The notes beneath the pieces are model-generated. The model saw nothing but the letters and a program-made list of their open reading frames with translations. It searched no databases and had not been told where the DNA came from. This document shows positions 3,942-29,047 of a stretch of 31,721 nt of DNA, one piece after another. Position 1 is the stretch's first letter. Every line of letters begins with the position of its first letter. Source of the stretch: a virus; IMG/VR virus record IMGVR_UViG_3300034198_016459, positions 1 through 31,721 of that record; one strand, given 5' to 3'. The translations under genes were made by a program, and so were the position numbers.

Positions 3942-6161
3942 TTATACCTGCAGGGCCAGGGCTCTCATGTTCTTCATGATCGGAACCAGGATCGAGTTGT
4001 TTGATACCGGCACGATCTTGACTGCAAAGTTCTTATACGAGTCGTATACGACGTCGGTGTTAGTGACGTAGCGCACGATGCTATTGTTGTTGGCGTACAG
4101 GAACGCGCCAGACTGAGACTTCAGATCCGGAATGGTTCCGACTGTCACGTTGCTGGAACTGAACGACGGCACAGAAGACAGGGTCAGCGTGTTATTGGAC
4201 GCCGCCACTACCTTTCTTACATTGAAGGTGCCCGTGCTTCCCGGCGTCACGTCCTTGAGATACACATATGTATTAGATGTATAATACGCGCTGTTTAGGA
4301 CGGTGACGTTGGCGATAGAAGTATTAGTTACCGCCCCGTTCGGATCGATCATGGTGCTAGATGGCAGACCAAACTGAGCCTCGATGACGTCGTCACGATT
4401 TACGGGCGAGCTGAATAAAGCAGTGGTGGCATCCAGCTCCGGCATGTATGACCAGTCCTTGGAGCTAAACGAGTCAGTGTCAGACCCGTTGAGGAACTTG
4501 CCGTACACCAGGAACTGCGTTCCTACCGGGCGATAGATCGTCAGGTAGGTGATCAAGTCTTCGGCGTCCTGCTTGTCTGCGAGGATGACGTTCTTCGAGA
4601 TGTATCGCGAAGCGCCGTAGTACCCGTTCTCTAGAGTCTCGTCGAAGTACGTGGAGACGGTGACGTTGGCCGTGGCGCCAGAAGTTCCGCCCGTGATCGT
4701 AGTATTAGAGAACGATCCGTTCGGAGAGTTGACTCTGATGTACGTATTGTTGGCTCCGTCCACCACTGCGGTATTAGAACCCTGTGTGATCGTCTCGCCG
4801 ACCAGGAACTTGCCAGAAATGCCGGTTAGGTTTAGGTGGTAGCCGAGCAGCTGAGTCTGCGCCGTCGGCGAGTTATACGTAAGCACTACCGAGGTGCCAA
4901 GACGATCGATGTATGGCGCAGTCAGGTTGTTGGACGTACTCAGGTCAGCACGAATTAGCAGGGTACTATTAGATCCCGGCGCGCCGGCCAGCGCATTGCT
5001 TCGCGAGTATACCTTGCGTTCAGTATCGATGAACTCATTTGGAATATTGACCTGTGTCGTCATGTATGACGAGTCTACTACACCGGAATTTGAGTAACCG
5101 GAGTAAGAGAAGTCGATGGCCGTCTGTGCCGGCGCGATATAGTTGATCTGTGGCGTAAGGCTGTCGTATTGCTTATTTGCCACCGAAGAGATATTAGCAG
5201 AAGCGTTCGAGCTGAGGCCGAATATATACTGGTTTGCCGACGTAGCAAAGTTTAGTGTGCTATTAGAAGTCGGGTTGGTCAGGACCAGCTCTACTTCTTC
5301 TTGATCAGAGAACTGCAGCTTTGACTTGATAGTGGCAAATAGCTGACCGTCTCCGCGGATTCTACCGAACGTACACGTAGTATTCGTGAAGCTGGCGTTA
5401 GAGCTGATCGTTATGGCCGTGCTGTTGACGGCGCTGGCCACTCTGCGGAAATTGATGCTGGTCCTGTCAGAGGTCGTCAGGTAGATCCAGTTATTCACAG
5501 TAAGATCTGCGATGCTGGAATTTGGCACCATGACTGTCGTAGAATTTGCGACAGTCTGGGCATACGTATAGGTGCTATTAGACACCCATACCGTCTCTTG
5601 ATTCAAGAACGTACCGACGGCGTTATTAATCTTGAGGAATTCCGTGTTGATCGGTCTAAAATAGACGTTGGCAGAAGTAGCAGTAAAACTGGCAGCATAC
5701 ATGTCATACTTCATACTCTCGTCGATGACCGGCGTAAACACTAGGTCATTAGAAGAGATGAATAGACTGCCCAGCTGGTTATTGGTGTAGATATCGGTCT
5801 GTGTCGCTACGTCTTTCTGACCTAGCTTAGACGTCCATACCAAGTACTCGTCATTGCCGCCGTCTGGAATCAGTACGAAGGCATACTGCGTATTGGTCTG
5901 AAGAAACGGTAGAGAATCGAATACAAAAGAAGTCGCAGTTGTAGCGGTATCGCTAGATGTTACGTCAGCCGAAGACAGACGTGATCTTCCACCCGCAATC
6001 ACATTAGGAGTAGGAAATCCATTGTCTACGGTGCGTATCTCCATGGTGATACCATATGTAGAAGATACGGCTTTGAAGTAGACATCGATCTTGCTGAGAA
6101 AGACGCCATCAATACTAGTGTCTGGCTGCGATACTAGAAATGATTGTGCTATTGGCTTCAT
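3942..6161 (-). CDS. large virion structural protein, probably baseplate or fibre attachment
   Basis: This 739-residue protein opens with KPIAQSFLVSQPD, SIDGVFLSKIDVYFKA and ITMEIRTVDNGFPTPNVI. This 'PxAQSF...GVFxxxxDVYF...PTP' module is familiar from large structural proteins of marine T4-like phages, where I recall it fused behind a DUF4815 region. It ends with YKNFAVKIVPVSN and NMRALALQV, also typical of that family. Two insert-like segments rich in Asn, Ser and Thr (about 5360-5560 and 4130-4330 in DNA) resemble segments in the neighbouring baseplate genes. No enzyme motif is seen. The gene lies 18 nt downstream of the DUF4815 gene, with a purine-rich AAGAGAGAAA stretch before its ATG. 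A role as a baseplate-periphery or fibre-connector protein is inferred. Confidence 0.78.
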   Translation of the reverse strand: MKPIAQSFLVSQPDTSIDGVFLSKIDVYFKAVSSTYGITMEIRTVDNGFPTPNVIAGGRSRLSSADVTSSDTATTATSFVFDSLPFLQTNTQYAFVLIPDGGNDEYLVWTSKLGQKDVATQTDIYTNNQLGSLFISSNDLVFTPVIDESMKYDMYAASFTATSANVYFRPINTEFLKINNAVGTFLNQETVWVSNSTYTYAQTVANSTTVMVPNSSIADLTVNNWIYLTTSDRTSINFRRVASAVNSTAITISSNASFTNTTCTFGRIRGDGQLFATIKSKLQFSDQEEVELVLTNPTSNSTLNFATSANQYIFGLSSNASANISSVANKQYDSLTPQINYIAPAQTAIDFSYSGYSNSGVVDSSYMTTQVNIPNEFIDTERKVYSRSNALAGAPGSNSTLLIRADLSTSNNLTAPYIDRLGTSVVLTYNSPTAQTQLLGYHLNLTGISGKFLVGETITQGSNTAVVDGANNTYIRVNSPNGSFSNTTITGGTSGATANVTVSTYFDETLENGYYGASRYISKNVILADKQDAEDLITYLTIYRPVGTQFLVYGKFLNGSDTDSFSSKDWSYMPELDATTALFSSPVNRDDVIEAQFGLPSSTMIDPNGAVTNTSIANVTVLNSAYYTSNTYVYLKDVTPGSTGTFNVRKVVAASNNTLTLSSVPSFSSSNVTVGTIPDLKSQSGAFLYANNNSIVRYVTNTDVVYDSYKNFAVKIVPVSNNSILVPIMKNMRALALQV

Positions 6162-6179
6162 TAATTCATTTCTCTCTTA

Positions 6180-9100
6180 TTAAAATCCGCCATCGCCCCA
6201 CTGGAACGTATCCATATAGCTAACAGGATAGTATTCTACTACTGGAGCTGGAGGCGGAGGTGGTGTATAGACTTGAATCGGTGGTCCAGCTACGACGCCG
6301 TTCTGCTGAATGATCTGAGTGTCTGTTACCTGCGTCTGTGTCAGCTGCGCCTGACGAGTATTTAGTATTGACGAGCCATATGACGTAGATAGACCACTTG
6401 ACATGTATGTAGTAGTAGCTTTAGTACTTATAGCACTTTCACCCTGCGACAGATCGGAGATATCTACTATCTTGAATTCCACGTCGCCTATCTTAAACGT
6501 AGAAGCAGGAATTGAGAATATACCTCTGACGGTACCATCGGTCTGCACGGTAAATGTATTTCCCCATGTCCCGCCATTTGCTGTATAATACGATGTAGTA
6601 TTTGCTTGTATGCCCGCTGAAGAAAGAACATACAGCGATTGACCGTTGCTGGTTTTAGGCAGAGTTGCTATAGCAGTATTTACAGTTCCGGTATAGACAT
6701 ACATCGGCTTACAGTAGTCTGATACTCTTGTATTATTGAAGTATGGATATACTGTGGCGCCGGGCTTAAGACCACGAGCAGAGAAGAATACTTCTCGCGC
6801 CTGGACGTATGGCTTGATGCTGATGTCAGTGACGAACGTGCCAAGGTTAAGTGCATTGTTTGATGTAGTCAGACCCAGCTGAGATCCCGTACGTACCTGC
6901 TGCGTGGTAGTAGTGGTATTGATATTGGTGTAGTACGCGGTATTGATAGAGCCGTCTGCGTTATACGTAGAGCTCGCTGCTCCATTCTGATACGCAGCGC
7001 CATATGAAGTGCTCGAACTTGTAGTAACCCAGTTACCCCACGTAGTTCCCCACGCCCGCTGAGCATTCAGGTTAATCCAGTTCGAAGCCAAGTCGAGGTT
7101 ATTCACTACGTCGGGTGAAGTAGTTCTGTCTGGCTGAAGATCGCCAGACGGCGACATGATGATAGAGCCTACCCAGTTATAGATATTACTGTCGATGGCG
7201 TTTCTATACTTAGAGGCGTATGGCTGCTGCTGCAGCAGAGTCTGAGTGAACTCGGGAACGATCTTATGACCAGTCTGACGAACATTGGTGCTAAGCGTGG
7301 TATCTACCACCAGTTCTTCGCTCCATGTCCTGAAGAACGGTCGCGCTTCCTGACGTGATGCGTCTACTGCGATCGAGTACTGTGGGTGCAGAGTATTGCC
7401 GATGTCGTGACCCTTGAACGGATCTACCAGGATACCGTTCTTGAATCGATTCTGACCAGTGGTACCAGAACGAACCAGGAGGCTAGCAGCTGACTGCTCA
7501 AGAAGAGACAGCGAAGTGTAGTACTCTAGGTTGGTGATACGATTAGCCAGCGTACCGATGTCGGACATCGTGTAGCGCTTGATCTGTGACAGCGTAATGA
7601 CAGGAGCGTAGTCATAGCGATCGTAGGTCTTGGCGTCGATAGCTGACAGAGTAGGATACGGCGGGACGTCGATGACGCCCAGCGACATGGTGCCTGGCTG
7701 CTCGATCGGCGCTCTCGGATTTGTCTCCGAGATGCCTTCCGTGACCAGTAGCTGGCCGCCGGTAGTAACAGATACACGATCTCTACGAGGTAGATAATGA
7801 GCCAGATTTGCTGTATACAGCTGGTTCGGAGAGATGATATAGGCACCCAGAGTTCCAGAGATGCTCGAGTCGGTGGCACCCGAGAATGATATTGAAGTGT
7901 TAGGATTGACCGTAGCAGAAGCCAGAGTAGAGGTATGAACGGCAGTATTTGCGACGTAAGGTCTAAAGTCTACGCAGTCGCGCAGGTCGAATACCGAACC
8001 CTTCGTCGGCGAGGTGAAGCGCGGAATCTCAGCTGTAGTGATGGCGTCTGTGTTAGCGGCGCCGTTTACATCATCGATGGGATACGAACCGGCACTGAAG
8101 AATCCCTTACCAGCAGTATCTTCATGAGCAAAGTGATCCACACTGACCAGGATGAGGCTCCCGGCCGGCATCGCTGTGATGTTAGACTTCAGATAAGCTA
8201 GGTCGTAGTAAGCGTCGCGCTGGCCGTTGTCCAACGTAAACGAAGATACCGAGTCTACCACTGAGCTTGAATACGAGCCGGTGCTTACCCAGACGTGATT
8301 GATCTTTAGGGCGTCAGTTACGCCCAAGCACCACGGGCCGGTAGTGCCACCAGTATTATTTGCTGTATTGATCTTTACTAGAGTGTTACGCTTGATAGTC
8401 TTGTTGATAGGAACGGTAGACTGTCTCAGGATGTCATGATATACTGATACCGCGAAGCTGGTATTTGGCGTGGTGCCCAGTGTGACGTTAGCAGAAGTCG
8501 AGCTCACGATGGTAATCGATCGGCCGGTGCGATTCAACATAGAGATCGGCTGACCGGCCGGGAACATCAGTTGGTGATTAGCCGAAGCAGAATACGCCGG
8601 CGTGATCGCAGTATTGATCTGAAGAGATGTCGCATTGACGATAGACGTAATGACGGCGGTGTTATTAGTCGTAGAGTTAGATACTCTTAGAACATCGCCG
8701 ACACGGTAGGTAGTAGTAAAGGTCGTGCTATTACCGGTAATCACATTACCAGAAGTAGTAACCGTTCCAGAGTTATTCGTGCTAAACCCGTTCTGATACG
8801 GGATGAGGATGAAAGTCTCCATCTGAGTCTGACTTAGAGTACCAACACCGTATGTGAAGATCTCAGAGCCTGTACCAGAAGCAGCGACGATTGGAATGTT
8901 TAGATTGCCGGTGGTGTCAAAAGTAGAGTTGGCTCGATTGCGATACGTGAACGCAGAGTTGGTGATCGAGTTAGATTGAACTGCCTTCTGACCGAACGGG
9001 AATACCATCGTACTGATGGCGTTCTCTTCCAGCTTAGCAATGCTGGTATTGCTGGCGTAGTCGTATGTCAGGACGATATCCGTCATCGCCTTGACAGTTG

Positions 9101-10502
9101 AAGACGGGTAGTATACGACGCTCTTCGCCTGGCTAAAGTTATAACCGGCATTCATCTTGATGTTGAAGAGGTATACGATATACTGTGCATCTACTCCTGG
9201 AGTGCCAGTGAAATATTCGATGCCACGAATATAGGCGGTACCAATCTTCTTGCTCTGATAAGCAGTGTTAAGGAACGTGCCGTTAGTGATGGCGCTATAC
9301 GCCACGGAGTGTAGTTCTACCTGAGCGATCGAATCTGTATTGAAGTCGCCTACAAACTGAGATCCGTATATGTAGTAGCCGAAGTTGGCCGACACGCGGG
9401 CGTCGAAACGCTCGGTATCCAGACCCTTTCTCAGATCTACCGCATTGCGATTCAGAAACTCTACTCTGTAACCCTTGGCATAAGCCAGACCGGGCGAAGA
9501 GATCAGGTTTAGATGTGTGGTATTTGCAGAAGTATTGGCCGTATCATTATTGGCTTTCTTAGTCTCTGTGGTCAGAAGAAACGGGTTGACCACGAAGTCG
9601 CCGTTGGTCTCGAATGTTCTCTTGGCCAGCTGAGTTCCTAGCGCCGAGTACTGCGGATCGTTCTTGATAGTGACCGGCTTACCGCCGCTGAAGTCGCAGA
9701 GCGAGAAGAACGGAGAAGTATTAGAGGTGTCATCAAAGGCGCGAATGATCAAGTCCGGCGTCAGCTTCAGACGATGAGCGCCCGGAGCTCCGTAGTTTGG
9801 AGCGCCCTGAGCGTTGTCGTATAGCTGCGTGTTAGAAGCCGGAGTCTCGATGTCTTCGATGACGCCGAATCCGACTGACACGTTGTTCGGCTGATTGCTA
9901 TACGGTTCTACGATCGTCGTCTGCGTGGGAACACGAATGAAGTATCCTTTCTTGAATACCACACCCTCCGTGACCGTCATGGCATAGCCGTAACCGGCGC
10001 TATTAGCCACGGTGGCTACAGTCACATTACCCACTGCCACGTTTGCAGACGTGGTCAGGACGAGGTTATCGGCATTCGCGTATACAGACTGGCCGTTAGA
10101 ACCCGAATTTAGATACTTGACATAAAGAGTGTTTAGATCTGGAGCCTGCGACTCGTATCCCTGCGTGGCATTTACTACCACTGCTTTCAGGTTATTTGAG
10201 TTGGTGACCGTCTTGCCTACCAGATCGGCGATGGTAAATGCAGATCCGTTAGAGTAGGTATCCTTGATCTTTACGTAGGCGTACTTGTTGTCGAACGAGA
10301 ACGCGCAGCCCTCGATAACAGAGCCTTCCTTGTAGATGCTGCGACCGAACTTGTCGATCTGATCCTGAAGGATGCTCTGGACCTGATTCATCTCACGCGC
10401 CTGGACGGGTACTCCAGGACGATACAGGACGGCGTACTGATTGGCGTTAGCCGAGAAGTCGTCGAAGTAAGGTGATAGCGACAGGTCGGTATCTAGGGCC
10501 AT
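6180..10502 (-). CDS. DUF4815-type virion structural protein, 1440 residues
   Basis: The N-terminus (LSPYFDDF, then VLYRPGVPVQAREMNQVQSI and LQDQIDKFG) matches the DUF4815 family pattern of very large structural proteins in T4-like phages. The body is a series of beta-rich, Asn/Thr/Ser-rich segments. Near residues 550-640 there is a segment with FTTTYRVGDVLRV, a motif that recurs in other proteins of this block. The C-terminus is Gln-rich, then carries PPPPPAPVV and a short aromatic tail ending in QWGDGGF. A GAGGA ribosome site lies 4 nt before the ATG. By position downstream of gp8 it probably replaces the T4 gp9-gp12 peripheral baseplate proteins. That equivalence is inference; no catalytic motif is visible. 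Confidence 0.85.
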   Translation of the reverse strand: MALDTDLSLSPYFDDFSANANQYAVLYRPGVPVQAREMNQVQSILQDQIDKFGRSIYKEGSVIEGCAFSFDNKYAYVKIKDTYSNGSAFTIADLVGKTVTNSNNLKAVVVNATQGYESQAPDLNTLYVKYLNSGSNGQSVYANADNLVLTTSANVAVGNVTVATVANSAGYGYAMTVTEGVVFKKGYFIRVPTQTTIVEPYSNQPNNVSVGFGVIEDIETPASNTQLYDNAQGAPNYGAPGAHRLKLTPDLIIRAFDDTSNTSPFFSLCDFSGGKPVTIKNDPQYSALGTQLAKRTFETNGDFVVNPFLLTTETKKANNDTANTSANTTHLNLISSPGLAYAKGYRVEFLNRNAVDLRKGLDTERFDARVSANFGYYIYGSQFVGDFNTDSIAQVELHSVAYSAITNGTFLNTAYQSKKIGTAYIRGIEYFTGTPGVDAQYIVYLFNIKMNAGYNFSQAKSVVYYPSSTVKAMTDIVLTYDYASNTSIAKLEENAISTMVFPFGQKAVQSNSITNSAFTYRNRANSTFDTTGNLNIPIVAASGTGSEIFTYGVGTLSQTQMETFILIPYQNGFSTNNSGTVTTSGNVITGNSTTFTTTYRVGDVLRVSNSTTNNTAVITSIVNATSLQINTAITPAYSASANHQLMFPAGQPISMLNRTGRSITIVSSTSANVTLGTTPNTSFAVSVYHDILRQSTVPINKTIKRNTLVKINTANNTGGTTGPWCLGVTDALKINHVWVSTGSYSSSVVDSVSSFTLDNGQRDAYYDLAYLKSNITAMPAGSLILVSVDHFAHEDTAGKGFFSAGSYPIDDVNGAANTDAITTAEIPRFTSPTKGSVFDLRDCVDFRPYVANTAVHTSTLASATVNPNTSISFSGATDSSISGTLGAYIISPNQLYTANLAHYLPRRDRVSVTTGGQLLVTEGISETNPRAPIEQPGTMSLGVIDVPPYPTLSAIDAKTYDRYDYAPVITLSQIKRYTMSDIGTLANRITNLEYYTSLSLLEQSAASLLVRSGTTGQNRFKNGILVDPFKGHDIGNTLHPQYSIAVDASRQEARPFFRTWSEELVVDTTLSTNVRQTGHKIVPEFTQTLLQQQPYASKYRNAIDSNIYNWVGSIIMSPSGDLQPDRTTSPDVVNNLDLASNWINLNAQRAWGTTWGNWVTTSSSTSYGAAYQNGAASSTYNADGSINTAYYTNINTTTTTQQVRTGSQLGLTTSNNALNLGTFVTDISIKPYVQAREVFFSARGLKPGATVYPYFNNTRVSDYCKPMYVYTGTVNTAIATLPKTSNGQSLYVLSSAGIQANTTSYYTANGGTWGNTFTVQTDGTVRGIFSIPASTFKIGDVEFKIVDISDLSQGESAISTKATTTYMSSGLSTSYGSSILNTRQAQLTQTQVTDTQIIQQNGVVAGPPIQVYTPPPPPAPVVEYYPVSYMDTFQWGDGGF

Positions 10503-18440: not shown

Positions 18441-18448
18441 TATTTATG
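18441..18448 (-). promoter_or_regulatory. weak late-promoter-like box before gp25
   Basis: CATAAATA on the minus strand differs from TATAAATA at the first base and overlaps the stop codon of the needle gene. Only 8 nt separate it from the gp25 ATG, so a transcript from it would have almost no leader. It is listed as a candidate only. Confidence 0.25.
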
Positions 18449-19247
18449 GGAGCTTCGGAATGATACTGCTAATCGTATTAGCCTGCGAGGTGATCGTATT
18501 AGCCTGAGTGATGATCGTATTCGCGGCGTTGGTGATGATGATATTACCATTGGTGCTGATAGCACCAGACGCATCCAGAGTAATAGACGAAGCCACTACC
18601 TTGTACTCGCCCGAGACCTGAAAATTACGATTGCCCAGAGTGAGTTCGGTCGAGTCTCCCTGGACAACGGCCGTGAGATTCCTGCCGACTACCACTGCCA
18701 TGTCCTGACCGGCAGAAGCATATATGTTTTGATCTGCAGTGGCAGTGATGTTTTGTCCGGCCGTAACTGTGGCGCTCTGACCAACGTGTAATTCTGCGTT
18801 CTTATTGACACCGGCCGTCATACTTCCGCCCACAGAAGCAGTCACGTCGCCATTGATTTCCAGGTGCGCATCTCCTCCTATCACCAGCCGAAATAAGCCG
18901 CCGATCTTGATGTCACCGTTCTTGTCGACCGTGATGGTCAAGCCGCCCTTATTATACTTGTAGTCGTTGCCAGAGACAAGTTCTACTTTGCGGCCGTCTT
19001 CTGCTATCTCGAAATAAGTACCGGCTCGATGGCCCATACGAATGCGCTCGCGGCCTGGCGTGTCGTCCCAGTGCATCTCATGACCGGAGCGTGTGACCAT
19101 CGCGCTGTTATACGGATATTCTGGTGCCGCTGTTGACGGCGGCAGGCGCGTATTTGCCTGCGAAGACTTAGTTAGTGTCTCGGTATCTGAGCCAACGGCG
19201 CCTACTGAATTACCAGAAAGACTATACGTAGGAAACTCAATAGACAA
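18444..19247 (-). CDS. gp5C: gp5 C-terminal needle (beta-helix spike) as a separate protein
   Basis: The protein corresponds to the C-terminal part of T4 gp5, the membrane-piercing needle. It contains PYNSAMVTRSGHEMHWDDTP, GRERIRMGHRAGTYFEI and ELVSGNDYKY, the VgrG/gp5 motif that leads into the triple-stranded beta-helix. About 12 short repeats follow (SVGGSMTAGVNKNAELHVG, SATVTAGQNITATADQNIYA), and it ends in SSIIPKLP. No ATG is available near the 5' end. The TTG at 19247 is preferred: GGGAG lies 6 nt before it and it follows the hub stop after 1 nt. A TTG at 19265 would overlap the hub gene by 17 nt but lacks a ribosome site. The start is uncertain; the family is clear. Confidence 0.85.
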   Translation of the reverse strand: MSIEFPTYSLSGNSVGAVGSDTETLTKSSQANTRLPPSTAAPEYPYNSAMVTRSGHEMHWDDTPGRERIRMGHRAGTYFEIAEDGRKVELVSGNDYKYNKGGLTITVDKNGDIKIGGLFRLVIGGDAHLEINGDVTASVGGSMTAGVNKNAELHVGQSATVTAGQNITATADQNIYASAGQDMAVVVGRNLTAVVQGDSTELTLGNRNFQVSGEYKVVASSITLDASGAISTNGNIIITNAANTIITQANTITSQANTISSIIPKLP

Positions 19248-19248
19248 A

Positions 19249-20538
19249 TTAAGCTCCCATTCCAAACTGTAAAGCAGTCTGTATTGACTGCTGTTGCTGT
19301 TGATCCTGTGCCTCGCGCTGCTCTAACTGATTTAGAATAGCTAGATTTTCTTCGGCTGTATTTACGGGCACATTAGCTTCTATAAACTGTTCTTGGGCAG
19401 CAGTAATAGTCTGTGGAGCTGCATTTGTATCTAGATCGGAAGCAGACATGACAGGAGGAGGCAACTTAATTTCGGCCACATCTTGATACGGGTCTGTAAG
19501 ATCTTTGTTCTTAGATGGTGTAGTTGCGGCTTTAGAAGACGTAGAAGTAGGCGGATCTGGAACGGGCGGCGGTTCCGGCGATGCTGCCTTTAGAGCATAA
19601 TCACGCAGTTTATTCGTTACAGCAAAATTTGCCGCGACTTGATTTACGATAGAAGAAAATCCGCCGCCGACTACTCCCGCAAGACCTAGCGCCTGATTCA
19701 TTATCCCGCCGACTGCGGTACCACTTAAAAGACCGACTGGATCTACGCCGGTCACACTGCTTGCCATAGAAATTAGCTGACCTATTCCGGCCGGTGTTTT
19801 TGCTAGTTCCTGAATGGTAGCTGGCAGTGCAGCCAGAGCTTGCGCCTCGGCGACTCCCTGAGATATTAATGTCTGAGCCGTACCCAGAGCACCCAGTAGC
19901 CCCGTCAAACCACCAGCAAAAGAAGACGCCGCGTCAGTCAAGGTATTTAACATGTAACTACTAGAGAATCCTTCAATCGCCTGAGCCATAGTCCCCGACA
20001 TATTCAGGGGATCGATCTCTGACATCAGGTTCAACAGATTACCAGTGTGTGTCGTGAGCGCACCAAGACCGGCAGATACTACAGGAAATATTGCGCCGAC
20101 CTGTGAAAGTGCCGGAAGATTTCTTAGACCTAGAGCTGCGTTAAGATCCTGACCTCTTGCTGAATTTGCTATATCATTGTAGTCAGAATCGATCGCGTAT
20201 GATCCGTCTACAGTCTGGCCCTTCTTCGTTCGACCGGCAGATACTAGAGTTCCAGTAGCGACGAATGTAGTACGATCACTATCTGCAAAGTATCCGTCGA
20301 CGACTGTTCCGGGAATAACACCGACTGGTGAAGAAGATACGCCACGAACAGAAGCTCCTGCTCCCATCGGAATACGAACCAGCGCCCAAGGCAGATCTTT
20401 ATCGGGAACTAGTTCCGTGTTATCGTGCATACCCACGACACGAACCTGAATACGACCCTGCTTCTTGGGATCCATGACATTTACCACGGTCCCGCGCCAG
20501 CGCTTGCCGCTATAGTCCAGTGTCCTGTCTACGTTCAC
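19249..20538 (-). CDS. gp5: gp5 N-terminal baseplate hub protein (OB-fold), no lysozyme domain
   Basis: The first 100 residues have the gp5 OB-fold pattern: WRGTVVNVMDPKKQGRIQVR, VVGMHDNTELVPDKDLPWAL and GTVVDGYFADSDR. In T4, gp5 follows this with a lysozyme domain and then the needle. Here no lysozyme motif is visible. Residues about 150-310 are Ala/Gly/Leu-rich helical segments (LTGLLGALGTAQTLISQGVA), then come a Pro-rich linker and a Gln-rich C-terminus (REAQDQQQQQSIQTAL). The needle is a separate gene just downstream in the +1 frame. The GTG start overlaps the preceding stop in GTGA. The protein probably sits under the gp27-like ring at the tail tip. Confidence 0.82.
   Translation of the reverse strand: MNVDRTLDYSGKRWRGTVVNVMDPKKQGRIQVRVVGMHDNTELVPDKDLPWALVRIPMGAGASVRGVSSSPVGVIPGTVVDGYFADSDRTTFVATGTLVSAGRTKKGQTVDGSYAIDSDYNDIANSARGQDLNAALGLRNLPALSQVGAIFPVVSAGLGALTTHTGNLLNLMSEIDPLNMSGTMAQAIEGFSSSYMLNTLTDAASSFAGGLTGLLGALGTAQTLISQGVAEAQALAALPATIQELAKTPAGIGQLISMASSVTGVDPVGLLSGTAVGGIMNQALGLAGVVGGGFSSIVNQVAANFAVTNKLRDYALKAASPEPPPVPDPPTSTSSKAATTPSKNKDLTDPYQDVAEIKLPPPVMSASDLDTNAAPQTITAAQEQFIEANVPVNTAEENLAILNQLEQREAQDQQQQQSIQTALQFGMGA
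19254..19258 (-). promoter_or_regulatory. Shine-Dalgarno GGGAG deciding the TTG start at 19247
   Basis: GGGAG on the minus strand sits inside the last codons of the hub gene, 6 nt ahead of TTG at 19247. No ATG or GTG start is present near this point in the needle frame, so this site is the main support for a TTG start. Confidence 0.5.
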
Positions 20539-24220: not shown

Positions 24221-24804
24221 CCACCGTATTTCAGAATATAGCAGCAGCGGCTTCGGATGCCAGCATAGTAGATGCTCGTAAGTGGTATCGTAATCAGGCA
24301 TCACTAGTAAAGAAAGTAAATGCCAGAGAGATCATCGATCCTAAGAACGTGCGTTCCAACATAGGAATGCAGAACCTCGGTCAGATGTTCATGTTCTTCT
24401 ACAACCCTAAGCTGAAGCAGTCTTTGCCCTATTATGACATGTTTCCGCTGGTATTTCCTGTAGAATTATACAGCGACGGCTTCCTGGGAATCAATTTGCA
24501 TTATTTGCCACGAAATTATAGAGCCAAACTCATGGATGCTCTATATACTACAATAAATAATAAGAAGAGTGATAAGAGTACTAGACTAAGATTGACCTAT
24601 GACGTACTCAGGTCGGCGACTAGTATGAGATACTTCAAGCCGTGCCTGAAGAGATATTTAGCCGGTCACATTATGCAGAAATTCATATACATAGATCCTG
24701 AAAATTGGGACAAAGCTTTAATGTTGCCGACAGAAAGATTCATGAAGAAGCCCGTCTTCTCCGTACATAGAGAGAGCGTAGAGTCTCTAAGAGCTGGACC
24801 ATAA
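24214..24804 (+). CDS. conserved T4-like phage protein, virion-associated, function unknown
   Basis: This 196-residue protein has a well-conserved-looking centre: GQMFMFFYNPKLKQSLPYYD, MFPLVFPVELYSDGFLGINL and HYLPRNYRAKLMDALYTTIN, then RYFKPCLKRYLAGHIMQKF. I recall closely similar proteins next to gp4 and tail genes in many marine T4-like phages, but no experimentally assigned role. It overlaps gp4 at its start (ATGGTAA) and the tube-fold gene at its end (TAATG), so it is made with both. That suggests a part in head completion, neck or tail-tube assembly; I would not choose among these. No signal peptide, membrane segment or catalytic motif is visible. Confidence 0.75.
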   Translation: MVTTVFQNIAAAASDASIVDARKWYRNQASLVKKVNAREIIDPKNVRSNIGMQNLGQMFMFFYNPKLKQSLPYYDMFPLVFPVELYSDGFLGINLHYLPRNYRAKLMDALYTTINNKKSDKSTRLRLTYDVLRSATSMRYFKPCLKRYLAGHIMQKFIYIDPENWDKALMLPTERFMKKPVFSVHRESVESLRAGP

Positions 24805-25505
24805 TGGGATTCGACGTACAAATCTTTAAGTCTCATCTGGAAAAGACTGGCACTCTACCCACTAACAAGTTCGAGGTAGAGATTCCGGTTCCACGCGTTC
24901 TGTACAATACTGAGGTCGTAGTAGGTAACTCTCGTAGGCCTCAGCCGACGTTTACCGAAACGCTAAGCTTCAGAGCCGAATCTGTTCGTGTTCCGGGCGT
25001 GTCTATGCAGGTCACGCCGGTCAACAGATACGGCTACGGTCCTCTGCAGAAGTTTCCATATAACGCAAACTTCACAGATACCTCGATGACGTTCATCGCG
25101 GACAAAGACAGCCTCGTATGGATATTCTTCTATAACTGGCTCAATAACGTATTTGCTTATAGTTCAGCAGACGCTCCAAACACAGAGTCGTATCTAAACT
25201 ATCGCTCAAACTATATGACAGACTATGCCGTAGATCCTAAGATCCATGTATACGATAGTGACGGCAAGCTTTCTACTTCGGTAGAAATGTTCGACTTCTA
25301 TCCCATAAGCATGAATGATATCTCTCTGGGATGGGGCGACAATAATCAGCTAAAAAGAATCACGGTGACATTTACATTTCGTCACTGGAGATTTACTAAC
25401 GTTACCACGACCGACGGTTCGACTAAAGCTCCTGAACCGCAAAAACTGGTCATACCTCCGCGCGGTCAGGTAATCAATACGGCTGTGAAAAAACTCTTCA
25501 ATTAA
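24804..25505 (+). CDS. gp54: tail-tube-fold protein, gp54-like baseplate tube initiator
   Basis: This 233-residue protein has the motif order of the gp19/gp48/gp54 tube fold: LSFRAESVRVPGVSM, YGYGPLQKFPYNANF, DTSMTFIADKDSLVWIFFYN, IHVYDSDGKLSTSVEMFDFY, PISMNDISLGWGDNNQLKR and ITVTFTFRHWRF at the end of the core. The main tube protein gp19 (about 160-200 residues) is normally encoded near the major head genes, so here a tube initiator of the gp54 kind is more likely; T4 gp54 has 320 residues. gp48, its expected partner, is the first gene of the divergent operon. The gene follows its neighbour with a TAATG overlap. Assignment to gp54 rather than a second tube protein is inference. Confidence 0.68.
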   Translation: MGFDVQIFKSHLEKTGTLPTNKFEVEIPVPRVLYNTEVVVGNSRRPQPTFTETLSFRAESVRVPGVSMQVTPVNRYGYGPLQKFPYNANFTDTSMTFIADKDSLVWIFFYNWLNNVFAYSSADAPNTESYLNYRSNYMTDYAVDPKIHVYDSDGKLSTSVEMFDFYPISMNDISLGWGDNNQLKRITVTFTFRHWRFTNVTTTDGSTKAPEPQKLVIPPRGQVINTAVKKLFN

Positions 25506-25527: not shown

Positions 25528-26238
25528 ATGACTCTGCCAAAGATCAGTCATCCCACATTTAAAGTAACTGTTCCGTCTACCAAGAAGCAGCTATTGTTTC
25601 GTCCATTCCTGGTCAAAGAAGAAAAGATCCTTCTGATGGCCAAGACTTCAAATGATAACAACGACATCCTCTCCGCTATAAAGCAAGTGGTAAACAACTG
25701 CTGCGAAGAAAAAGGATTCGACGTCAATAAGCTAGCGATCTTCGACCTAGAATACTTGTTCCTGAAAATCAGATCCAACTCAGTGGGTAACATCGTTCCC
25801 CTGTCTTTCAAAGACCTCGAGGACGAAAAGGAATATAAGTTTGAAGTCGATCTAAACCAGATCGAGGTCGAGTATCCAAAGGACGCAGACAACAGGATTA
25901 AGATCAACGACAAGGCGGGCATGATCATGCGCTACCCGAGCGCTGCCCTGTATGATGACAAGAGCTTCTTGTCTCTCGGACAAGACGCCATGTTCGAGCT
26001 GATTATTCGATGCGTGGATAAGATCTATAGCGGCGAGGACATGTACGATCCTAGCAGCTATACGAGAGAAGAGCTGACGAACTTCGTAGACAACCTAGAC
26101 GTAAAGACGTTCGAGAGTATTCAGGGATTCCTGTCAAATGCTCCGACGATGAAACACGTATTGTCTTATAACAATTCTCTAGGAAACCAACGTAAGATCG
26201 AGCTAACGACTCTAAACGATTTTTTTACGTTGCGCTGA
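25528..26238 (+). CDS. gp26: baseplate hub assembly protein gp26 (0-frame product)
   Basis: This is the 236-residue product of normal termination. The N-terminus (TLPKISHPTFKVTVPSTKKQ, then FRPFLVKEEKILLMA) and the body (FDLEYLFLKIRSNSVGN, VEYPKDADNRIKINDKAGMI, MRYPSAALYDD) match the T4 gp26 baseplate family. T4 gp26 (208 residues) is needed for assembly of the central hub; it acts as an assembly factor more than as a main structural part. AGGA lies 7 nt before the ATG. The last codons cross a run of seven T (26220-26226), a -1 slippery heptamer in the correct register, and the TGA stop lies within a downstream stem. A fraction of ribosomes may therefore extend the protein in the -1 frame. 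Confidence 0.9.
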   Translation: MTLPKISHPTFKVTVPSTKKQLLFRPFLVKEEKILLMAKTSNDNNDILSAIKQVVNNCCEEKGFDVNKLAIFDLEYLFLKIRSNSVGNIVPLSFKDLEDEKEYKFEVDLNQIEVEYPKDADNRIKINDKAGMIMRYPSAALYDDKSFLSLGQDAMFELIIRCVDKIYSGEDMYDPSSYTREELTNFVDNLDVKTFESIQGFLSNAPTMKHVLSYNNSLGNQRKIELTTLNDFFTLR

Positions 26239-26289
26239 GTCATACTTCTCTCGAAAACTATTACAAGACAGTTTTCGCCCTGGCTCAGC
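26220..26289 (+). promoter_or_regulatory. predicted programmed -1 ribosomal frameshift signal
   Basis: The heptamer T TTT TTT (26220-26226) is in the X XXY YYZ register of gp26. After a 7-nt spacer a stem forms between 26234-26242 (GCTGAGTCA) and 26281-26289 (TGGCTCAGC), 9 pairs with one G-U. Inside it a second stem pairs CGAAAACT (26252-26259) with AGTTTTCG (26270-26277) around a 10-nt loop. The 0-frame stop TGA (26236-26238) is inside the first stem. Spacer length and stem position match known -1 frameshift sites. Confidence 0.82.
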
Positions 26290-26411
26290 ATCATAAATAC
26301 TCCATTGCAGATATCGAGAATCTGATTCCGTTCGAGCTCGACATCTATGTAACTATGCTGAAAGAATATATCAGTGAGCAAGAAGAGAAGCAACGAAACA
26401 GCGGCGCCTAA
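26226..26411 (+). CDS. gp26-fs: -1-frame extension of gp26 (frameshift product, 294 residues with gp26)
   Basis: From 26226 the -1 frame is open for 61 codons and ends in TAA overlapping the next ATG. It reads YVALSHTSLENYYKTVFALA, then QHHKYSIADIENLIPFELDI and YVTMLKEYISEQEEK. This looks like a genuine helical domain; I recall similar 'HH.YS..EIE.MIP.E..IY' sequences after gp26 in other T4-like phages, sometimes labelled gp51. Between the in-frame stop at 26193 and an ATG about 20 codons before the end there is no ATG, GTG or TTG. Independent initiation is therefore unlikely unless a CTG is used. Fusion to the first 233 codons of gp26 would give 294 residues. Its place just before the long tail gene resembles lambda G-GT and P2 E-E' chaperones. 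Confidence 0.8.
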   Translation, partial: YVALSHTSLENYYKTVFALAQHHKYSIADIENLIPFELDIYVTMLKEYISEQEEKQRNSGA

Positions 26412-29047
26412 TGAAAAAGAAGACTCGCGGCCAGAAGAAAGAAACCGATAAAGAACCGGCGGCCGTAGCTCCCGGAACGGCCGATCTGAGTAAGTTCATA
26501 GATGACATGGTCGCGGAAGACGCCGTTGGTTCAGAAAAACTTGATACCAAAGAAAGCGTCAACAGTTTCGTAGACTCGATGGTGTCTCTTTCTACAGACA
26601 CCGCCAAAGAAAAGAAAGACGGCATAAAGCAGAAGGCTCGTGAAAAGAGCAAGGGAGCCACCGGTGGCATGTCTAAGTCTCTAGACTATGCCATCAAAAA
26701 TCTGACTAATATCGAGAAGCAGAATAAAGAAGGTATCGCAGAGAATAAGCGAGACATAGAAGAAAATCACCAGGCCATCCAGCGCCAGGCTACTTCTATA
26801 ACGATGCTGCAACATCAGATGCAGGATTTATCTCGCAAGACTGCTCGTGCGCTGGGCATGCTCAGCGAAATGAATAAGAAGCTTGATGCTCTCAAAGACT
26901 ATATCGATGAAAAAGTTCAAAAGCTGCCGGAAGAAGAAGACAAGAAGTCTTGGGGAGATATCCTCGACGCTAAAGTCGGCGCCGGCCTTAAGAAAGTTGG
27001 TAGAGCCGCCGCCCGTGGATTAAAAGCCGCACCGGGATTCTTGAGAGCTGCCGCCGGACCCGCCGCACTAGGCGCTACGGCTGCCGCTCTATATAACATG
27101 AGACAAGAGACTCTCGAATCAGACCTAGGCACGGCATACGAAAAGGGCGACCTGAATAAGATCAAGAATCAGGCAATCCGTCAGGGTCAAACTGGAATGC
27201 GTGCTACAGACGCAGAGCTAAAGAGCGTCATCGACGGTGGACCGGAATTAGCTAAAGATATCCTAGAGAGGGGCGGCCGAGACGTAGAACTATACGGCGG
27301 CAGACAGAACCTTGAGAAGCTGGCGGCCGGCGAAAAGCTTTCAGTAGAAGAACTGAAAAAGGGTACTGAAGACGTCGGCGTAAAAGCAGTTCAGAAGAAA
27401 ATAAAAGAAGCTAAAGAATTAGGGCCTGCCAAAGGACCTCAGGAATCTACTGCAGTAAAAGCTGCGAGAGCAGAGACCGGCGCGGGCTCCGCGGGAGGAG
27501 CGCCGGCCGGCGGCGGGGCTGCTTCTGGTAAAAACGCTACGCCTACTGGAGCGCCAGGCGCGGGAGGTCTAGGAAATACTTCCATGGATACTTCAAACGC
27601 CACTGGAGTAGGAGAGACTGCGACGGCCACAAAAGCTATGCAACTGCTATCGGCCAAGGGATGGAATCAAGAACAGGCTGCAGGCATCGTCGGCAACCTG
27701 CAGGCAGAGTCTGGACCGGATATGAAGACCAATGCTGTCGGCGATGGCGGCAAGGCATACGGTATCGCTCAGTGGCATCCGGATAGACAAGACAGATTCA
27801 AGAAGCAATACAAAAAAGATATTAGAGAAGCTGGCTTCGAAGAACAGCTTGACTTCCTAGACTGGGAAATCAAGAACGTAGAGCTTCAAGCATATAGAGC
27901 GTTAAAAGAAGCAAAGAATGCTCGTGAAGCAGCCATAGCTTTTGATCAGTACTACGAGAGATCTAGCGGCGCTCACAGAGCTCAAAGAATAGCCAACGCC
28001 GAAGCTATCATGAAGACCGCAAAAGGCAGTACCGATCAAACTTCAAATCCTACGCCGACATCAGCGCCAGAGGGCTCGATGCCGGATGCCGTTCCATCCA
28101 CGCAAGAAAAGGGAGTAGCCGCACCTGGCGCTGCGCCGCTCAAGAATCCTGGCGCCGGAGAAGCTAAAGATCAGAGCCAGGGATATAAGCCGTCAGCCGG
28201 GGAAGGATCCATGCCGCCGAACGTTCGCCTCGGGTCTGGCGTAAACATATCTGCCGTAGACAAAGACTTGCTGTCTAAGTTCTTCAGCGCGGCAGCAGAG
28301 TACGGAAAGCCGGTGACCATCGAGTCTGCTGCTCGAGACGATAAGAAGCAGGCCGAGTTGTGGGTTCGTGGCCGTATCCTTAAGGAACCGGGTATATACA
28401 TGCCGGCAGCTCCTAGGACCCCGCAGAGAATCACTTATAACGGAAAAGAATACGACGTTCCGGGTGGTGGCAGCGGCAGCTCACACGCAGACGGGCAGGC
28501 TCTGGACGTTCCTCAGGCGCCGCAGATGGCGGGTCTTCTACAGAAATACGGTCTGACGATCCCGTTCGGCGGATCAGATCCCGTACATATTCAGAAGATA
28601 GGATACACGCCCACCGGTGGCGGTAGTCCCGGAGCGATGGGCGGTGGTCAGTCTGCCCCTAGAGGACGAATGGGCGGTGAAGGATCTAGCATGCCACAGA
28701 CTGCTTCGCGTGGAATCGATTCTATACTAAGTGCTAGCACTGGCCGCGGTTCTAGCATGCCGTCTGGCATGGGCGCCGCCGCCATGACTCCGGGAATGGG
28801 ACCGCTGGCTGGTATCCTGAGTACTCTCGCAGTAGGAGGAGCTAGGTCCATGGTTCCTCAGAACCCGATGGGTATCATGGGTCTAGTCGGAAGTCTGCTG
28901 AATACACTGAGTCCGCAGAATCGCGGAAACAATCCACAGTTCAACTCAGATAGTTTTAAAGATAATACAGTACCGGCCGCGATGCCTTCAGCCAGTATAC
29001 TCAAAGAAGTATTTGGCATGGAAATCGAGAAAGCGTATAGGCCATAA
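26411..29047 (+). CDS. 878-residue tail lysin with lysozyme and M15 peptidase domains, tape-measure-like N-terminus
   Basis: From the N-terminus there is a Lys/Glu-rich start, a coiled coil at about 90-180 (NKRDIEENHQAIQRQATSI), an Ala/Gly-rich hydrophobic stretch near 195-225 (AAPGFLRAAAGPAALGATAA) and a flexible Gly/Ala linker near 355-390. A phage-tail-lysozyme-like domain at about 405-540 follows (GWNQEQAAGIVGNLQAESG with likely catalytic E433, then GIAQW and LDFLDWEI). Next is an M15 peptidase-like domain at about 610-735, with H692 and D699 in SSHADGQALDV and H726 in SDPVHIQ as expected zinc ligands, and then a Met/Gly/Pro-rich tail. It probably cuts peptidoglycan glycan and peptide during injection. 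The coiled coil, hydrophobic segment and position after gp26 suggest a tape-measure or hub-linked role. Its ATG overlaps the frameshift-frame stop. Confidence 0.82.
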   Translation: MKKKTRGQKKETDKEPAAVAPGTADLSKFIDDMVAEDAVGSEKLDTKESVNSFVDSMVSLSTDTAKEKKDGIKQKAREKSKGATGGMSKSLDYAIKNLTNIEKQNKEGIAENKRDIEENHQAIQRQATSITMLQHQMQDLSRKTARALGMLSEMNKKLDALKDYIDEKVQKLPEEEDKKSWGDILDAKVGAGLKKVGRAAARGLKAAPGFLRAAAGPAALGATAAALYNMRQETLESDLGTAYEKGDLNKIKNQAIRQGQTGMRATDAELKSVIDGGPELAKDILERGGRDVELYGGRQNLEKLAAGEKLSVEELKKGTEDVGVKAVQKKIKEAKELGPAKGPQESTAVKAARAETGAGSAGGAPAGGGAASGKNATPTGAPGAGGLGNTSMDTSNATGVGETATATKAMQLLSAKGWNQEQAAGIVGNLQAESGPDMKTNAVGDGGKAYGIAQWHPDRQDRFKKQYKKDIREAGFEEQLDFLDWEIKNVELQAYRALKEAKNAREAAIAFDQYYERSSGAHRAQRIANAEAIMKTAKGSTDQTSNPTPTSAPEGSMPDAVPSTQEKGVAAPGAAPLKNPGAGEAKDQSQGYKPSAGEGSMPPNVRLGSGVNISAVDKDLLSKFFSAAAEYGKPVTIESAARDDKKQAELWVRGRILKEPGIYMPAAPRTPQRITYNGKEYDVPGGGSGSSHADGQALDVPQAPQMAGLLQKYGLTIPFGGSDPVHIQKIGYTPTGGGSPGAMGGGQSAPRGRMGGEGSSMPQTASRGIDSILSASTGRGSSMPSGMGAAAMTPGMGPLAGILSTLAVGGARSMVPQNPMGIMGLVGSLLNTLSPQNRGNNPQFNSDSFKDNTVPAAMPSASILKEVFGMEIEKAYRP

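Follow-up and report, generated by a model that had tools for sequence, protein, structure and literature searches.

Frameshifting is the usual way in which tailed phages make the short and the long form of a tail assembly chaperone. In lambda, the G/G-T frameshift was reportedly described by Levin et al. in 1993. For T4-like phages, the tail assembly chaperone genes were identified by Vladimirov, Gautam and Davidson (2022, Virology 566:9-15), a work considered here as it is cited in two later papers (PMC10885494, PMC12846349). In the PRFect paper (PMC10885494) it is cited for T4-like phages that, in place of frameshifting, encode the fused long form in a gene separate from the short one, and in the Adele paper (PMC12846349, 2025) for T4-like phages whose TAC-N genes carry poly-T slippery sequences. 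The mechanism discussed below is therefore rated, on the strength of these citing statements, as already reported in the family, and the locus as a new member of it; the remark of an earlier note on this DNA, that it knew of no report of frameshifting in gp26, is overtaken by the citation in PMC12846349.

The stretch analysed here, called the window, is a viral DNA of 31,721 nt (IMG/VR record IMGVR_UViG_3300034198_016459). The features of the locus are:

24804..25505, + strand: upstream gene, tail tube family protein (phrog_45 tail tube, E=1.7e-35)
25528..26238, + strand: gp26, 0-frame product of 236 aa, putative short tail assembly chaperone (TAC-N, G-like; PF12322 T4_baseplate)
26193..26195, + strand: TAA stop codon closing the -1 frame upstream of the slip site (direct reading)
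26220..26226, + strand: slippery heptamer T TTT TTT in the X XXY YYZ register of gp26 (conserved in 49/49 of the clade)
26220..26411, + strand: -1 extension, gp51-like C-terminal domain, 61 codons after the heptamer plus TAA, probably frameshift-fused to gp26 (TAC-NC, GT-like, ~294 aa; phrog_634)
26227..26233, + strand: spacer of 7 nt from heptamer to stem (direct reading)
26234..26242, + strand: outer stem, 5' arm, holding the 0-frame stop (covariation with 26281-26289)
26236..26238, + strand: TGA, 0-frame stop codon of gp26 (direct reading)
26252..26277, + strand: inner stem, 26252-26259 with 26270-26277, predicted in the window and unconserved (fold only)
26281..26289, + strand: outer stem, 3' arm (covariation with 26234-26242)
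26411..29047, + strand: 878-aa tail protein, probable tape measure with a tail-lysozyme domain (phrog_9570 tail length tape measure, E=5.8e-35; PF18013 Phage_lysozyme2, E=3.3e-30)

Read directly, gp26 ends in GAT TTT TTT ACG TTG CGC TGA, and the run of T lies in the 0 frame in the X XXY YYZ arrangement of a canonical -1 programmed ribosomal frameshift. The heptamer in this register, the 7-nt spacer and the 0-frame stop inside the 5' arm of the outer stem had all been proposed by the earlier note, and their coordinates were verified. The identity of gp26 is clear from its score against PF12322 (190.8 bits, curated cut-off 24.5), which in the 294-aa fusion matches the span of gp26 residues 9-233 (E=3.4e-56). 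The window uses TTC for Phe 251 times and TTT 120 times, and with this codon usage D-F-F would be spelled with T TTT TTT about 4.6% of the time. Taken together with the comparisons below, a programmed -1 frameshift at the gp26 heptamer is very likely, with a probability of roughly 0.94; the slippage itself, its efficiency and the chaperone role of the products are what we infer from these data.

According to the proposed mechanism, most ribosomes would pass U UUU UUU and terminate at the UGA at 26236, giving the short gp26 of 236 aa, while a minority would be paused by the hairpin that begins 7 nt downstream. Both Phe-tRNAs of the paused ribosomes would slip back by one base, and the slipped ribosomes would translate 61 codons in the -1 frame up to the UAA at 26409, giving a gp26-gp51 fusion of ~294 aa. 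The gp26 protein would then coat the tape-measure protein, whose gene follows directly, and tail assembly would require the gp51-like tail of the minor form.

Two features of the locus are those of G/GT-type genes: the cassette lies between the tail tube family gene and the tape-measure-like gene, whose start ATG overlaps the TAA of the extension, and it encodes, by sequence, a short and a long form with a common N-terminus (gp26 and gp26-gp51). The 878-aa protein is, by its profile matches, the probable tape measure, and the position of gp26 and its extension just upstream of its gene agrees with what had been noted earlier by comparison with lambda G-GT and P2 E-E', which precede H and T respectively. 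For the AlphaFold model of gp26 (pLDDT 87.5), the PDB entry matched with the highest probability is 2ob9, the HK97 tail assembly chaperone, but this match is weak and partial (probability 0.63, E = 1.2), and a sequence search of the PDB with the gp26 profile found no match. Given the E value of the fold match, the chaperone role is supported by gene order, by the short/long pair and by the literature, and from these gp26 and gp26-51 are likely to form a tail assembly chaperone pair of the G/GT (E/E+E') kind. It could be argued that the frameshift is real and that its products help to assemble the baseplate hub, the older view of them in T4, rather than acting as chaperones of the tape measure, since the annotations of T4 gp26 and gp51 name a baseplate hub protein and a hub-assembly protein. 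However, this is unlikely: the cassette stands directly before a tape-measure-like gene in a G/GT layout, the fold match, weak as it is, is to the HK97 chaperone, and T4-like tail assembly chaperones have been identified in published work, as cited in PMC10885494.

An alignment of relatives, suggested by the earlier note as the check on the heptamer, the stem and the missing start codon, was carried out, and its outcome was favourable on each of these. A near-identity DNA search with the junction found no match among annotated phages and protein searches were therefore used: tblastn with gp26 gave matches in 581 annotated phage records, 80 uncultivated relatives were also retrieved, and extra scans with phiAS5, Moby and T4 gp26 added few loci. 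With near-copies dropped (members share <90% identity over 100 nt), the non-redundant sets hold 49 members of the window's clade and 33 Kyanoviridae. All 49 clade members have T TTT TTT, directly preceded in each case by GAT, and all 33 Kyanoviridae have T TTT TTC at the same position. The remaining Phe codons of the clade gp26 genes are TTT in 66% of cases, and the clade heptamer would arise by chance with P ~1e-9 at each Phe position, a figure that takes the rows as independent and overstates significance for related sequences; a chance origin of the heptamer is nonetheless excluded, mainly by its conservation. Counting near-copies, the heptamer is present at 178 of the 199 loci scanned (82 TTTTTTT, 95 TTTTTTC and 1 TTTTTTG), while 18 of the 21 loci that lack it belong to one Ackermannviridae clade. 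It is also found in Mosig, phiM12, Cr30, KVP40, phiAS5, phiM9, S-WAM1, S-CAM1 and others, with the form T TTT TTG, identical to that of P2 E, in AF3 and phiM9. One Moby-like Stenotrophomonas phage record (L203, ~1945-1960) has five T, not six, in the slippery run; both frames would be broken by this, and it is either a sequencing error or a rare variant.

The -1 frame has the properties of a protein-coding sequence. Its product matches phrog_634, 'baseplate hub assembly catalyst' (gp51), with E = 4.6e-25, 562 phage records carry a match to it, and its consensus reads FF-x3-LSHN-x-LENYY...QHHKYS-x2-EIEN-x2-PFERD-x-YV. At every non-truncated heptamer locus the frame is open for 55-74 codons. The pN/pS ratio of the clade is 0.21 over 453 moderately diverged pairs, against 1.13 for the 0-frame reading of the same bases, and that of the Kyanoviridae is 0.18 (moderately diverged pairs), against 1.26 in the 0-frame control. 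By these comparative measures the -1 frame is coding and under strong purifying selection, and the earlier impression that it looks like protein is borne out. The claim that it lacks a start until its last third is likewise correct for the window, where it is closed by the stop at 26193, then open up to the TAA at 26409-26411, and offers as its first ATG, GTG or TTG the ATG at 26355, from which only the last 18 codons would remain. Among the non-redundant clade members, 29/49 have a -1 stop immediately before the heptamer and 27/49 have no ATG, GTG or TTG until 60 nt past it; as a consequence, an independent start of the extension is excluded for many of them and unlikely in the window.

GenBank records list the -1 frame as a gene of its own, 'gp51, baseplate hub assembly catalyst'. 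The extension is absent from the deposited annotations of ACP17 (L093), S-WAM1 (L204), S-CAM1 (L205) and Vi01 (L095), and in P-HM2 (L006) the annotated gp51 begins at an internal ATG and omits the conserved N-terminal half; missing or shortened annotations of this kind are expected if a frameshift goes unrecognised. The GenBank reading, in which gp51 is a small protein of its own made by translational coupling or re-initiation after the gp26 stop, can point to the CDS annotated in many records and to an ATG no more than 10 nt from the stop in S-PM2, phiM12 and Cr30. Nevertheless, it is very improbable for four reasons: a start codon is absent there in the window and in most of the clade; the annotation it relies on halves the conserved protein in P-HM2 and misses it in ACP17, S-WAM1 and S-CAM1; the T4-type phages hold the gp26 and gp51 domains in one fused ORF; and the heptamer and the hairpin would be left unexplained.

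A downstream structure at a spacing of 5-9 nt is the second element of a canonical -1 frameshift, and here a covarying 9-bp stem lies 7 nt downstream of the heptamer. From the heptamer on, the window folds with an MFE of -19.4 kcal/mol (z = -3.44), which 1 of 200 shuffles equalled. The earlier note had described a hairpin of two stems, and both fold at the coordinates listed above, but only the outer one is conserved. Across 48 clade sequences 89.4% of its cells are paired, falling to 19-37% when the stem is slid by 1-3 columns; it has 16 double-changed cells against 6.1 in shuffles, and none of 500 shuffles matched its pairing or its covariation score, although the tool warns that related sequences can beat shuffles without structure. 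Since kinship can inflate covariation relative to shuffles in this way, the slid control matters as well, as does the comparison with synonymous-codon shuffles that keep the -1 protein, below which the folding energy of the clade lies with a mean z of -2.35 (p <= 0.05 in 33/49). The spacing of 7 nt is reproduced in the MFE folds of 28/49 clade members. The inner 8-bp stem was rejected as a component of the signal, being 65.6% paired and showing no excess covariation. RNAalifold found no consensus structure over the alignment, probably because of the 38-nt loop and the variable inner part, and the named stem was counted directly for this reason; Rfam gave no match.

In the Kyanoviridae the slip site is kept and its surroundings differ. 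The codon before the heptamer is TCT, AGT, GAT, AAT or GCT and always ends in T, though it encodes Ser, Asp, Asn or Ala, which points to selection on the nucleotide and not on the protein. The outer stem of the window was sought in these cyanophages and is not present (4.9 of 9 pairs), yet their folding energy is also below that of synonymous-codon shuffles (mean z -2.30; p <= 0.05 in 21/33), and their hairpins, built from different arms, begin at a similar distance from the heptamer, mostly 4-10 nt. Structure is thus kept as a feature while its sequence is replaced. Upstream of the heptamer, 20/33 have an SD-like 5-mer, against 9.5 expected from synonymous shuffles and essentially none (1/49) in the window's clade. 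The commonest is GGAGG, 10 nt upstream of T TTT TTC (e.g. L001, L100-L179), a distance close to that of the stimulator in E. coli dnaX, and the element is possibly an upstream frameshift stimulator. Some Kyanoviridae have a -1-frame ATG just after the stop (20/33 within 60 nt of the heptamer), and in those an independent initiation of the extension is possible.

These observations bear on whether the ribosome or the RNA polymerase slips. Slippage of the polymerase on the run of seven T present in the window's clade could yield some mRNAs with an extra or a missing U that encode the fusion. This scenario is less probable still than a separate gp51, given that in the Kyanoviridae, KVP40, AF3 and phiM9 the run is only six T long, with C or G after it, and lies in an unchanged ribosomal register. 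Slippage of the ribosome also accords with the covarying RNA stem at a 7-nt spacer and with the SD-like elements that many Kyanoviridae have 10 nt upstream. An assembly or homopolymer error hiding one continuous frame, as the homopolymer at the break might suggest, is refuted, because the identical break recurs in 178 loci, always at this codon and with six or seven T, and reference phage genomes from many laboratories are among them.

The Ackermannviridae differ from the groups above. Vi01 and its relatives, together with Vibrio phage BX-1, keep a -1 gp51-like extension and have no T TTT TTY heptamer (L184-L201, near locus position 2000; L094 and L095, near 3185 and 3233). Vi01 has one gp26-family gene only and is the single-copy exception without the heptamer. 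In its clade a conserved ATTTTC precedes the stop, where the sequence is TAAT or TAATG, and the junction of BX-1 has GTTTTTCGC and TAATG.

T4 has a different arrangement. Its genes 26 and 51 are on opposite strands, and its gp51 (249 aa) carries PF12322 over 1-201 and phrog_634 over 147-246 in a single ORF; having both the gp26-family domain and the gp51 C-terminal domain, T4 gp51 is the fused long form. The window-type extension aligns to its residues 200-243 (hhalign, probability 61%, E 8e-5). Each of the six phages of this type sampled (T4, Cronus, Bp7, DP45, Aes508 and Shinkou) has two PF12322 genes, no slippery site was found near the gp26 end in any of them, and FF is encoded by TTC TTT in T4, Cronus, Bp7 and Shinkou. 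Conversely, 13/13 phage records outside the Ackermannviridae with a single PF12322 gene have the heptamer. These gene contents show the heptamer and the separate long gene to be mutually exclusive among the phages sampled. The window does not have the T4-type pair of a separate full-length long gene with the slippery site absent; it has the heptamer and one PF12322-family gene in its 31.7 kb, which are a fragment, and the gene is also single-copy in relatives on contigs of 99-223 kb. Thus, the earlier description of gp26 and its extension as the T4-type counterpart of G-GT is right as to the G/GT layout and the heptamer in relatives, but not as to T4 itself, with its separate gp26 and fused gp51. 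The T4-type paralogues cluster together (96/84) in a midpoint-rooted tree with long branches, a grouping that fits, tentatively, a gene duplication within the T4-type lineage.

This raises a wider reading, which we consider somewhat better supported than its negation: that T4-like phages outside the T4-type lineage mainly, and probably ancestrally, express these products through a frameshift cassette at the gp26-gp51 junction. The slip site would be fixed and the stimulators lineage-specific, with a long covarying stem here, in cyanophages other hairpins together with an SD-like element lying 10 nt upstream, and in Ackermannviridae a non-canonical site, and the gp26/gp51 pair of T4 would be a duplication replacing the cassette. 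If so, the 'gp51, baseplate hub assembly catalyst' would not exist as a free protein outside the T4-type lineage. Independently of this wider reading, the frameshift at gp26 corrects the gene model of a core tail gene in hundreds of deposited T4-like phages, in which the extension is annotated as separate, truncated or missing. Furthermore, a fixed slip site, changing hairpins and an alternative two-gene solution in T4-type phages make up a strong comparative data set for the question of how a frameshift ratio is maintained and how gene duplication can replace a frameshift.

Two other loci of the window have adjoining or overlapping frames. At 3942-10502 (- strand), adjacent ORFs of 1440 and 739 aa each match a different half of a single 2056-aa family (phrog_358), which is split in several relatives too and is a 2170-aa open frame in one contig; this looks like gene fission or fusion in the family. 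At 18444-20538 (- strand), overlapping ORFs of 429 and 273 aa cover a gp5-like hub/tail-lysozyme family (phrog_430), the second part of which is its own open frame in most relatives as well.

Compared with known systems, the predicted frameshift at gp26 is closest in protein family to the T4-like gp26/gp51 chaperones of the 2022 work, which, as cited, share both the family and the short/long pair with the window; the T4-type phages sampled, T4 included, differ in making the long form from a second, fused gene, with the heptamer absent, where the window would use a frameshift. The poly-T -1 frameshift of Pseudomonas phage Adele and the Vandenendeviridae (PMC12846349) also stands ahead of the tape measure and has an extension mis-annotated as a separate gene, but its motif is GTTTTT and the virus family is another. 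Lambda G/G-T resembles the window in having a short and a -1 frameshifted long chaperone ahead of the tape measure H, and differs in its heptamer, G GGA AAG, and its sequence family. Phage P2 E/E+E' shares with the window a contractile tail, a -1 shift, a heptamer of the T TTT TTY/G type and a place directly before the tape-measure gene (T); P2 E is annotated with a -1 frameshift at T TTT TTG and has 91 aa against the 236 aa of the window gp26, with sequence similarity between the two not expected.
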